DNA of 64,000 nt from Emticicia sp. C21. Its GTDB lineage: Bacteria > Bacteroidota > Bacteroidia > Cytophagales > Spirosomataceae. Below are positions 15,661-19,662 of this stretch, in pieces. Under the pieces are notes generated by a model. The model had not been told where the DNA came from. It did no database searches and saw only the letters and a program-made list of their open reading frames with translations. A program made the position numbers and the translations under genes. The DNA is taken from assembly GCF_003418935.1 (NCBI RefSeq), contig NZ_QVMT01000001.1, forward strand, positions 1 through 64,000. Direction: 5' to 3'. Position 1 is the stretch's first letter; every line of letters begins with the position of its first letter.

Positions 15661-15864
15661 TTAGCAAACAAGATTTTTTTCTTTAAACATCTTAGCCATT
15701 TTCTTTCTTTCTTTCTTGATCAACTTCATTGTCTCTTTTGTAATTACCACTTTAGAAGATTCTTTAGTAGAATCAGAAGTAGTTGATTTGTTAGTGTCAT
15801 CGTTAGCAAAAGCGGCACTTGAAGTTAAAATTGTTACAATAGCAATTGTCAGAATCTTTTTCAT
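15661..15864 (-). CDS. small exported protein
   Basis: A 67-residue protein with a clear signal peptide (MKKILTIAIVTILTSSAAFA, cut near residue 20). The mature part is an acidic Ser/Thr/Asp-rich stretch (21-38), then a strongly basic helix (KLIKKERKKMAKMFKEK) and a single Cys near the end. The function is unknown. A small periplasmic protein that binds something acidic is conceivable. Overlapping plus-strand frames (15471-15786) are rich in F, S and L and look like its antisense shadow. Confidence 0.55.
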   Translation of the reverse strand: MKKILTIAIVTILTSSAAFANDDTNKSTTSDSTKESSKVVITKETMKLIKKERKKMAKMFKEKNLVC

Positions 15865-16381
15865 TTTTACTCAATAGTTATCGGGTTATTTTTTCCCTCT
15901 TGGTTTGATGATTCAAAATTACATCAATCTCAGACGGATTTGGGACCTTTTCGATGAATTGACAAATTTAAAGTATTTTTGGAGACATTTGCAAGATAAT
16001 TGGTATTAAACGGCGACGAATGACAGCATTAAGGGGATAACTGGCAGATTATATCGACAAGTGGCAGGAAATATCGGAAAACTGGCGGAAAGTTTCGGTG
16101 AATGGTAGGAAATGACGGTTAATTGGCAGCACTAAACGGTAAGTGGCAGTTAATTCTCGACAAGTGGCAGTCCATACCGATAAGTGGCAAGCAAGCTTTG
16201 GTAAATGGTAGAAAAATCTGGTAATTGGTAATTGCCATTTTTCTATAGTATAATGGTGGACCAGCCAGAATTATACCGAAAAACGAATAAATTGATTTAC
16301 ACGAAGCATGTCGAAATATAATTTCACTTTACGTCTGTTTTTATTAAATTCAAGCCTATTTTAACAGCTACCATATTTACT
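15865..16381. other. 517-bp divergent spacer holding a phased repeat array
   Basis: It separates the minus-strand small exported protein from the plus-strand Tat-exported protein. About 230 bp of it is the array listed next. After the array comes an imperfect dyad around TGGTGGACCA (16254-16263), then AT-rich DNA up to the ATG at 16382. No reading frame spans the array. Confidence 0.7.
16001..16231. repeat. degenerate tandem array, about 12 units, mean period 20.5 bp
   Basis: TGG-type hexamers (mostly TGGCAG, also TGGTAG, TGGCGG, TGGCAA, one TGACAG) start at 16001, 16021, 16042, 16062, 16083, 16103, 16124, 16144, 16165, 16185, 16206 and 16226. The spacing alternates exactly 20, 21, 20, 21 throughout. 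A second conserved word, CGR or TGG, lies 7-8 bases before most of them. Typical unit: cgacaagtggcaggaaatat. The rest of each unit is variable and A-rich. The period is not a multiple of three, so it is not a coding repeat. It equals two helical turns, placing all the motifs on one face of the DNA. Confidence 0.85.
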
Positions 16382-17305
16382 ATGAACCGTAGAGATTTTT
16401 TAGGCGCAAGCTCCGGAGGAGGAATCATGCTAAATGCTATTCAAACCGCTGCCCAACAAAGCCCTTATCAAGCCATACCTAATGCAGACCTGAAATTAAA
16501 AGTGCTGGCTACTAACTGGGGCTTCTCTGGGAACACCGATGCTTTTTGTGAAGCTGCCAGAAAAGAAAATTATGATGGCATAGAAGTATGGTGGCCGAAC
16601 GAAAAGAAAGACCAACAGGAATTATTTGCTGCCTTAGACAAACACCAGTTAGAAGTTGGGTTTCTTTGTGGTGGCTATCAGAAAGACCCAAAAGATCATC
16701 TGGAGACTTTCAGGAAAGCTATCAATGCAGCTACCCAATCTGTCAAGAAACCTCTGTACATTAATTGTCATAGCGGGCGCGATTATTTTACTTACGAGCA
16801 AAACAAATTATTCATAGACCATACTACCGAAGCAAGCCAAAAGAGCGGTATCAAAATTCTGCATGAAACTCACCGTGGGCGAATGCTTTTTGCAGCGCAT
16901 ATTGCGCATAATTTTATAGAGAAGAACCCTGCCCTGCGTCTTACTTTAGATATATCCCATTGGTGTAATGTGCATGAATCTTTGTTGGAAGACCAAACCG
17001 AAGCTGTGCAAGCCGCTTTGGCAAGGGTTGATCATATTCATTCAAGAATTGGCCATCAGGAAGGGCCTCAGGTAAATGACCCACGAGCGCCTGAGTGGGA
17101 AAGTGTGGTAAAAGCACATCTGGCCTGGTGGGATAAAGTAGTAGAATATAAACTAAAGTCTGGTGATACGTTGACGATTCTTACAGAATTTGGTCCACCT
17201 AACTATTTGCCTACTCTTCCTTATACTAAACAGCCTTTGGCTGATCAATGGGGTATTAATGTGTATATGAAGGATTTATTGAGGAAGCGATATCTGAAAG
17301 GTTAA
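16382..17305 (+). CDS. Tat-exported sugar phosphate isomerase/epimerase-like TIM-barrel protein
   Basis: A 307-residue protein starting MNRRDFLGASSGGG, a twin-arginine signal with the RRDFL motif, then an AP_endonuc_2-type TIM barrel (about 33-300). Likely metal and active-site residues are in EVWWPNE, the NCHSGRDYF block, ILHETHRGR, LTLDISHWC, HIHSRIGHQEG and LTEFGPP. Periplasmic members of this family in Bacteroidota are often placed with sugar catabolism, but no sugar operon is adjacent. The true substrate is unknown. The gene follows the phased array and precedes the WYL regulator by 47 bp. Confidence 0.8.
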   Translation: MNRRDFLGASSGGGIMLNAIQTAAQQSPYQAIPNADLKLKVLATNWGFSGNTDAFCEAARKENYDGIEVWWPNEKKDQQELFAALDKHQLEVGFLCGGYQKDPKDHLETFRKAINAATQSVKKPLYINCHSGRDYFTYEQNKLFIDHTTEASQKSGIKILHETHRGRMLFAAHIAHNFIEKNPALRLTLDISHWCNVHESLLEDQTEAVQAALARVDHIHSRIGHQEGPQVNDPRAPEWESVVKAHLAWWDKVVEYKLKSGDTLTILTEFGPPNYLPTLPYTKQPLADQWGINVYMKDLLRKRYLKG

Positions 17306-18613: not shown

Positions 18614-19129
18614 TTATTTCATTCTCTCAATGATCTGTTTCTCTAAAAACCCGGTAGATCTGACCTCTTTTAAACATAATCCCCTCACATGAGTATAGGC
18701 CGCTTTTTCAGTAATATAAGCCACCATATTAGCTAGCATTACAGTCATCGAGGTTCTGTTTTCTTCTTCCTTTACTTGAAAAATAATATCAGTCAAGACA
18801 AGTTCAGGTTCATAGGAATAATTCTTTAATTTTTCCCGGCCAACAATTACACGAGAACTACTATCCTCCGGAATTCCATTAGCGCTTTCAAACGTGAAAG
18901 TATTGATTCTATAAGGTTCGGACATGATTAGCCCATTTTTTCTATCTATTACCTTTAAGGAGATGTTATTTTTTAGACAATACTCAATAATATTTGTCAT
19001 TACCTGGTCAGCAGATTTATCGAAAACTACTGTATAATCGCTCGGATAATTGCCTTTTAAAGGAATATAGTCTATTCGACAGGCCGACGTCAAAAATACT
19101 ATTGTTAGAAATATTAATGTCTGCTTCAT
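18614..19129 (-). CDS. lipoprotein, member of a tandem pair
   Basis: A 171-residue protein with a lipoprotein signal (LIFLTIVFLTSAC, lipid-bearing Cys at about 17). The mature domain begins with PLKGNYPSDYTVVFDKSADQV, continues IIEYCLKNNISLKVIDRKNGLIMSEPYRI, and ends with VRSTGFLEKQIIERMK. The neighbour at 19147 has the same length and the same three landmarks, so the two are tandem paralogues. The internal alternation suggests an alpha-beta domain. Family and function unknown. Confidence 0.7.
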   Translation of the reverse strand: MKQTLIFLTIVFLTSACRIDYIPLKGNYPSDYTVVFDKSADQVMTNIIEYCLKNNISLKVIDRKNGLIMSEPYRINTFTFESANGIPEDSSSRVIVGREKLKNYSYEPELVLTDIIFQVKEEENRTSMTVMLANMVAYITEKAAYTHVRGLCLKEVRSTGFLEKQIIERMK

Positions 19130-19146
19130 TACTGCGAGTAGTTTGG

Positions 19147-19662
19147 TTAATTATGGGCATTAAATATTTTGTCAATAATCTGCTTCTCTAAAAAACCAGT
19201 AGATTTGACTTGCTTTAGATATTCCCATTCAGAATACCATGCCTTTAGATCAGATAATCTAACAGTCAATGAGATTTTATTGTTTTTTTCATTTAATTTA
19301 AAATTTATAAAAGTCCAGATAATGGTAGGTGGCTGGCAATCTGCTATAAATTTTCCTGGCGTTTCACAGCCCAGAACCACATTAGCACCGTTTTCCCGAA
19401 GTGTTCCGTCTTGATTCTCAAATGTATAAGTTCCAAGTTTATACCATTGAGAAACTATTAATCCACTTTTTCTATCAATTATTTTTAATTTTATTCCACT
19501 TTCTGAGCAATATGCAATTATATCATTCCATAGCTCGTCAGAAGATTTTTCCGAAATTATAGTATAATCGGTTGGATAATTACCTTTTAAAGGACGGGTA
19601 AGCTTTTGTTGACAGCTTGAAAAAACAGATAGGATAAGCAGCAAACTTAATACTTTCTTCAT
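19147..19662 (-). CDS. lipoprotein, tandem paralogue of the gene at 18614
   Basis: A 171-residue lipoprotein (signal MKKVLSLLLILSVFSSC, Cys17). It shares PLKGNYPTDYTIISEKSSDE, LKIIDRKSGLIVSQWY and KSTGFLEKQIIDKI with the next gene, which follows after 17 bp, so they form a two-gene operon. The centre differs: it has the segment VVLGCETPGKFIADC with two Cys, which could form a disulfide. Function unknown. Confidence 0.7.
   Translation of the reverse strand: MKKVLSLLLILSVFSSCQQKLTRPLKGNYPTDYTIISEKSSDELWNDIIAYCSESGIKLKIIDRKSGLIVSQWYKLGTYTFENQDGTLRENGANVVLGCETPGKFIADCQPPTIIWTFINFKLNEKNNKISLTVRLSDLKAWYSEWEYLKQVKSTGFLEKQIIDKIFNAHN

Follow-up and report, generated by a model that had tools for sequence, protein, structure and literature searches.

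A predicted multi-site LytTR operator of regularly phased direct repeats beside a small exported-protein gene of Emticicia sp. C21

The DNA examined here is a stretch of 64,000 nucleotides from Emticicia sp. C21 (contig NZ_QVMT01000001.1, positions 1 to 64,000; hereafter the window). Two divergent genes in it, one for a predicted exported protein of 67 amino acids (67-aa gene) and one for an enzyme-like protein with a Tat-like signal (Tat-signal gene), are separated by a long row of short direct repeats (Table 1). An Rfam scan of the window returned three tRNAs only, none of them across the row. Directly before the ATG of the 67-aa gene, its leader carries AACTATTGAG (15865-15880, minus strand), which is kept in three genomes. 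Elsewhere in the window, two adjoining minus-strand genes (18614-19662) encode similar 171-aa lipoprotein-like proteins and are, by eye, likely a tandem duplication.

Table 1. Coordinates of the array, its neighbouring genes and related features; positions without a prefix are those of the window.
Feature	Position	Strand	Basis or remark
Predicted exported protein of 67 aa, probable target gene	15661..15864	-	Pfam matches below cut-off only
Predicted -7 box TAATTTTG	15914..15921	-	44 bp after start of last unit
Two degenerate promoter-proximal units, in register; the last is TTGTCAATTCATCG	15952..15985	-	5 and 6 of 13 consensus positions
Twelve recognisable 14-bp LytTR-type sites CTGCCANTTAYCGA	15993..16231	-	motif, spacing, shuffle statistics
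5' ends of the twelve sites	16231, 16211, 16190, 16170, 16149, 16129, 16108, 16088, 16067, 16047, 16026, 16006	-	
Divergent gene, AP_endonuc_2 / xylose-isomerase-like TIM barrel, Tat-like signal (below cut-off)	16382..17305	+	
Other intergenic arrays or pairs, own genome	C1:768630, C1:834168, C23:200016, C23:452205, C32:177490		three-word pattern
Motif pair	C29:454721		separate search
156-aa LytTR protein gene, candidate regulator	G000:C29:454180-454647		best matrix score
Array of four clear sites, then two weak ones in register	C23:200013-200101		before TAAATTTG
Stretch behind the C23 array	L019:2160-2660 (G000:C23:about 200159-200659); also L128, L129, L215		

On the plus strand, the motifs start at 16001, 16021, 16042, 16062, 16083, 16103, 16124, 16144, 16165, 16185, 16206 and 16226, giving intervals of 20, 21, 20, 21, 20, 21, 20, 21, 20, 21 and 20 bp (mean 20.5 bp). 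An earlier note on this DNA had described twelve TGG-type hexamers with eleven strictly alternating intervals: the alternation was borne out without exception, and one motif, at 16021, reads TGACAG and is thus not strictly of the TGG type. Read on the minus strand, that is towards the 67-aa gene, the site is CTGCCANTTAYCGA, with a conserved stretch of about 13-14 bp per unit and linkers of 6-7 bp. The CGR word that had been noted 7-8 bp before the hexamers is present; rather than a separate word, it is the other end of this element. Autocorrelation of 15952-16231 was highest at lag 41 (0.544; the highest value among 2000 dinucleotide shuffles was 0.41; z ~14), and the shuffle comparison proposed in the earlier note therefore came out in favour of the periodicity. 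Chains of TGG[CT][AG] words spaced 20/21 bp reached a length of 10 in the array, at most 3 in shuffles and at most 2 in the rest of the window, both strands considered. A tandem-repeat finder (TRF), also proposed there, recovered fragments with periods of 20 and 21 and missed the array as a whole.

The register runs on towards the 67-aa gene through two weak units (minus-strand 5' ends 15985 and 15965), with which the array comprises 14 units and 13 alternating intervals over 15952-16231. Matches to the consensus as good as theirs (Table 1) occur at 26% and 11%, respectively, of positions drawn at random from the window; individually the two units are at chance level, and they rest on register, partial conservation and promoter geometry, the register walk having taken the best-scoring step among 18-23 bp, so that they are partly picked. 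The TTCATCGA core of these degenerate units is kept in two other genomes of the genus (G001 and G008) and at a second locus of the strain (C23, below). Counted from the ATG of the 67-aa gene, the units lie at -101, -121, -142, -162, -183, -203 and -224 and, further up, at -244, -265, -285, -306, -326, -347 and -367. From the start of the unit at -101 to TAATTTTG at -57 in the 67-aa gene promoter is exactly 44 bp, an agreement that depends on the register, as both promoter-proximal units are at chance level singly. A perfect TAAATTTG also occurs at -106 of this gene, with no unit 44 bp upstream of it. A -7 box conventionally starts near -11, which would place the last site over about -55 to -42. 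On the side of the Tat-signal gene, -7-like boxes were listed, the full promoter comparison being confined to the other side. The earlier note had placed the array between divergent promoters; its orientation and register instead indicate the 67-aa gene on the minus strand, and the Tat-signal gene, from which the sites face away, is probably not the target.

Among 11 genomes of the genus, the 67-aa gene is present in three, the same three that have the long array; in the other eight the gene is absent and no long array was found among the model matches. In both G008 and G001, the same locus holds an exported gene of 67 or 64 aa with the Tat-signal gene as a conserved neighbour, and motif and spacing are kept there, a comparison with relatives that the earlier note had called for. 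The clear units in these genomes show the same 20/21 alternation, and the two weak units are spaced 21,21 instead. Over 11 units, sites are 82% identical between genomes and linkers 63%, and the spacing of clear units is equal. Loosely scored pairwise alignments placed 4-10 gaps inside the array, in contrast to the equal spacing obtained from unit positions; we trusted the unit positions above these gap counts, which stand. Linkers within one genome are dissimilar (identity 0.30-0.40), as are non-orthologous linkers between genomes (0.36-0.39), whereas orthologous ones reach 0.65-0.68. Recent tandem duplication was rejected on the unlikeness of the non-orthologous linkers, within as well as between genomes. 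No trace of a duplicated 41-bp dimer was seen: units at odd and even separations are equally similar, and the 20/21 alternation therefore leaves no trace of such an event; it may reflect the tracking of a 20.5-bp pitch. A CRISPR array was rejected as well, in agreement with the earlier note, because the units vary, the linkers are only 6-7 bp long and units match one-to-one between species.

A pattern of three spaced TGGYRG words was searched for in the 6.64-Mb genome, as the earlier note had suggested for its motif, and gave 21 matches, of which the window array accounts for six, compared with 4 for the reversed control. Fourteen places were fetched, those within coding sequence or isolated being excluded by eye; six of the 15 places listed outside the window, by eye G-rich or coding-like, were left unfetched. 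With a motif pair from a separate search, six other intergenic arrays or pairs came to light (Table 1). Where a gene could be assigned, the motif is oriented so as to read CTGCCA in the direction of that gene; no ORF of at least 60 aa starts close to the C32 and C23 arrays. Three of the six lie about 110 bp upstream of genes for stand-alone LytTR proteins (PF04397) of 117 aa (L017), 116 aa (L020) and 156 aa (L027/L052); the window array has no adjoining LytTR gene. The two-turn direct-repeat spacing had led us to presume a LytTR protein before these gene identities were computed.

The genome encodes 65 LytTR domains, of which 24 belong to proteins no longer than 170 aa; these 24 'stand-alone' genes were set by start-codon choice, and one (L056) was read in the wrong orientation. 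When the regions upstream of all 65 domains were scored with a matrix built from nine window units, the pair before the 156-aa gene reached 36.4, ahead of runners-up at 18.7, 16.9, 14.2 and 13.2. L017 and L020 account for the scores of 18.7 and 14.2, with related pairs that have CCA cores and similar geometry. A model of a pair plus -7 box (R2) gave few extra targets in the strain's own genome. Of its eight matches inspected outside the training set, C16:19693 and two others were rejected because they lie inside ORFs, C12:506819 (E 4e-4) was dropped because no ORF of at least 50 aa starts in the next 400 bp or so downstream, and C29:404165 (E 0.23) proved to be a promoter too, that of a different stand-alone LytTR gene (L062); we claim none of these matches as a target. 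By eye, the intergenic DNA near three arrays (L020, L021, L212) repeatedly contains G+C-rich stretches like GCTCCCCTTTAGGGG, possibly a dispersed repeat family. A further locus, L111 (G000:C12 near 370718), contains a 137-aa ORF with KTEPEKVTNMVGTFL-like repeats.

In the second array, on C23, the clear sites are spaced 20,21,21 and the weak ones 21,21, and 20.5 bp is therefore no rule for all arrays. The stretch behind it is conserved in G008 and G001 with insertions and deletions, and by eye with no shared ORF; it contains several ACAATTGCTATTGAG copies and a hairpin-like AAAAGTGGAGTTGAAAATCGACTCCACTTTT, and a similar stretch also occurs in G002. Rfam assigned it no family at its cut-off. The arrangement suggests that the stretch may be a LytTR-controlled non-coding RNA. 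CTATTGAG is common to the leader of the 67-aa gene and the repeated element of C23, and occurs four times in the window.

Distance to the promoter links these loci. A -7 consensus for Bacteroidetes is published (PMC7366714), and in all ten 156-aa gene promoters from the genus and its close kin (L141-L149 and that of the strain itself) a TAnnTTGC/TTTG box follows the start of the proximal site at exactly 44 bp. The boxes of seven more distant orthologues (L150-L156) are weaker and CAATATTG-like; five of them lie at +44 and two at +43. Across eight promoters of the strain, two of which (window and C23) are anchored on a degenerate last unit picked by register, the -7 match peaks at +44 in seven and at +43 in the eighth, at C28, with none of 20,000 rotations as good. 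When the window, C23 and C28 were set aside, the five promoters with clear sites, the strain's own 156-aa promoter among them, all peaked at +44 (4, 6, 5, 5 and 5 of 6 positions; 0/20,000 rotations as good); with C28 included, P was 5e-5. The pairs at C28:130890 and G006:C5:2757033 depart from +44.

A similar spacing recurs, independently of the CTGCCA motif, before some other genes of this class. A perfect TAnnTTTG box lies within 160 bp upstream of 7 of the 24 stand-alone LytTR genes, the remaining 17 having no perfect box and falling outside this comparison. In six of the seven (L044, L062, L074, L078, L087 and L017), a 21-bp direct repeat (at least 9/14 identical) starts 38-48 bp before the box, weakly so in L062 and L087 at 9/14; the seventh, L041, has no such repeat at that distance. 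Five of these six repeats have motifs unlike CTGCCA. Among the 41 longer, response-regulator-type LytTR genes, none of 15 boxes reached 9/14 and the register was absent. L074 and L078 encode similar LytTR proteins and have the motif AAGTTCAAAATGAG in common.

In the 156-aa protein, Pfam found a LytTR domain only (residues 39-131) and no receiver domain of a two-component response regulator; its AlphaFold model was poor (mean pLDDT 39.8; ten sequences). Named relatives carrying a near-identical gene are Emticicia. An orthologue (E<=1e-25) was detected in 13 of 58 related genomes, namely 10 of the 11 of the genus plus G031, G032 and G035, that of G009 showing an in-frame TGA in the search. All ten genus genomes with the gene have a motif pair, 20-21 bp apart, in its promoter. 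A model trained on 17 dimers, one of them a 156-aa promoter pair (R1), matched 11 of the 13 orthologue genomes and none of the other 45 at E<=1e-3, a co-occurrence limited by the resemblance through descent of orthologous 156-aa promoters; at E<=0.05, weak single matches appeared in five genomes without an orthologue. G005, the sole genus genome lacking the gene, also lacks an R1 match.

A further model (R3) was built from array dimers only, taken from three genomes and restricted to 21-bp spacing. Its best match was the 156-aa promoter pair in all seven genus genomes that have the gene and no long array. In G005, the best E was 0.046, and outside the genus 3 of 25 genomes were matched at E<=0.1 (best 0.011). 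In the three array genomes the 156-aa promoter pair was not listed at E<=0.1; searched locally, it scores there as two 13-bit pieces. Upstream of the 156-aa gene, at 16 loci inspected by eye, lie what we take to be a kinase/response regulator pair (7/16), a PurA-like gene with a protein of 158-184 aa (8/16) or another enzyme (1/16); no small membrane protein was recognised by eye beside the gene at these loci.

Published LytTR operators, as described in the sources, are made up of repeats 9-11 bp long whose separation is 11-13 bp, placed just upstream of -35 (PMC6193735, PMC4847170). Those of AgrA, ComE, VirR and YpdB, and of HdrR/BrsR of the LytTR Regulatory Systems, share with the array a period of about 21 bp, a place just upstream of the core promoter and, as predicted here for the 156-aa gene, autoregulation; by eye, the YpdB repeat GGCATTTCAT is similar to the TGCCATTTATCG unit of the array. 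They have two repeats, compared with 12-14 here; by eye, neither a sensor nor a membrane inhibitor regularly accompanies the 156-aa gene, and the promoter is of the Bacteroidetes -7 type. Like the array, the operators of CoxC and RcoM1 exceed two LytTR sites and space them two turns apart. They have three sites, and CoxC is described as a repressor whose repeats, at 18-21 bp, overlap -35 (PMC11347149), whereas by Pfam the 156-aa protein has no CO-sensing domain. A likeness in principle exists to BldC, a small stand-alone DNA-binding protein reported to form cooperative head-to-tail multimers on direct repeats of varying number (PMC5859096); BldC has an unrelated MerR-like fold and 9-bp sites, and the array system is not a member of its class. 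The same source mentions a response regulator, printed as 'AcrA', that can bind multiple tandem repeats, their number not given. In the open-access literature searched, the largest LytTR operator with a stated repeat number has three repeats, none approaches 12-14, and no mapped operators of stand-alone LytTR proteins were found for the host's order. LytTR operators of two and three repeats at this period are thus known; what differs is the number of sites.

Together, the motif, its spacing and conservation, the shared promoter geometry and the association with LytTR genes, all read from sequence, lead us to infer that the array is a multi-site LytTR operator, that its likeliest regulator is the 156-aa protein and that it activates the 67-aa gene; we put the probability of this reading at roughly three in four. 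The array agrees with LytTR-type operators in repeat length and period, in promoter distance (in the window, by way of the degenerate last unit) and in linkage to LytTR genes through the pairs upstream of stand-alone members. The cooperative platform on one helix face envisaged in the earlier note is thereby supported and can be given a name, binding and cooperativity being predictions. Each CTGCCANTTAYCGA unit would be one LytTR binding site. With a mean spacing of 20.5 bp, or two helical turns, the proteins on successive units would share one face of the DNA and be arranged head to tail. At its promoter-proximal end the row has a site whose start is 44 bp before the -7 box, as in the two-site promoter of the 156-aa gene; from this position upstream of the core promoter we infer activation, in which the promoter-proximal regulator would contact RNA polymerase and the upstream sites would raise occupancy and cooperativity.

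Another LytTR protein, for example that encoded at C1:768217 or C23:451786 or a LytTR response regulator, or several such proteins, might instead act on an operator of the same kind. The genome offers 65 LytTR domains to choose from, and the L017 and L020 pairs have CCA cores and similar geometry, yet those pairs score far below the 156-aa pair on the array matrix (18.7 and 14.2 vs 36.4) and the motif tracks the 156-aa orthologue across genomes; we consider this alternative unlikely. It is quite improbable that a LytTR array represses or titrates, as a decoy that sequesters the regulator or by silencing the 67-aa gene. The number of sites, a dozen or more, does exceed the apparent need for activation, and CoxC is a LytTR repressor acting on three repeats (PMC11347149). 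Its operator overlaps -35, however, whereas the last site of the array is situated upstream of the core promoter, where the LytTR genes' own promoters also have it, and a decoy would have no need of a register tied to a promoter.

That the array is structural DNA independent of LytTR, through intrinsic curvature or as a platform for nucleoid proteins, seems very improbable: two-turn phasing and linkers that are AT-rich by inspection would suit it, but the sequence-specific sites are better conserved than the linkers and the same motif stands in LytTR promoters at fixed geometry. Scarcely credible is an origin in chance or in the decay of a tandem duplication, which the earlier note had raised as the other reading. 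Varying units, with degenerate ones adjoining the promoter, would suit it; against this, none of 2000 shuffles comes near the observed periodicity, conservation holds unit by unit in three genomes, and there is no excess likeness between linkers or at even separations. Were there an old duplication with all linker traces gone, the inferred function would be unchanged.

Returning to the main reading, we raise as a doubtful extension that the stand-alone LytTR protein polymerises head to tail along DNA as a filament of 20.5-bp pitch, for which the array would be a track of nucleation and growth. Rows of this kind on direct repeats are within reach of a small protein, as BldC demonstrates (PMC5859096). 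If the filament exists, the strict 20/21 alternation would be the best whole-number tracking of its pitch, and the array would be a long-range, switch-like operator that turns on an exported peptide gene and, at C23, a conserved repeat-bearing RNA. More generally, the combination of a 21-bp direct repeat and a proximal site about 44 bp before a -7 box provides an orphan regulator family with operators that can be tested. If 12-14 phased sites do serve as one operator, LytTR proteins are able to work in long rows, beyond pairs and triplets, and their cooperativity becomes directly measurable.
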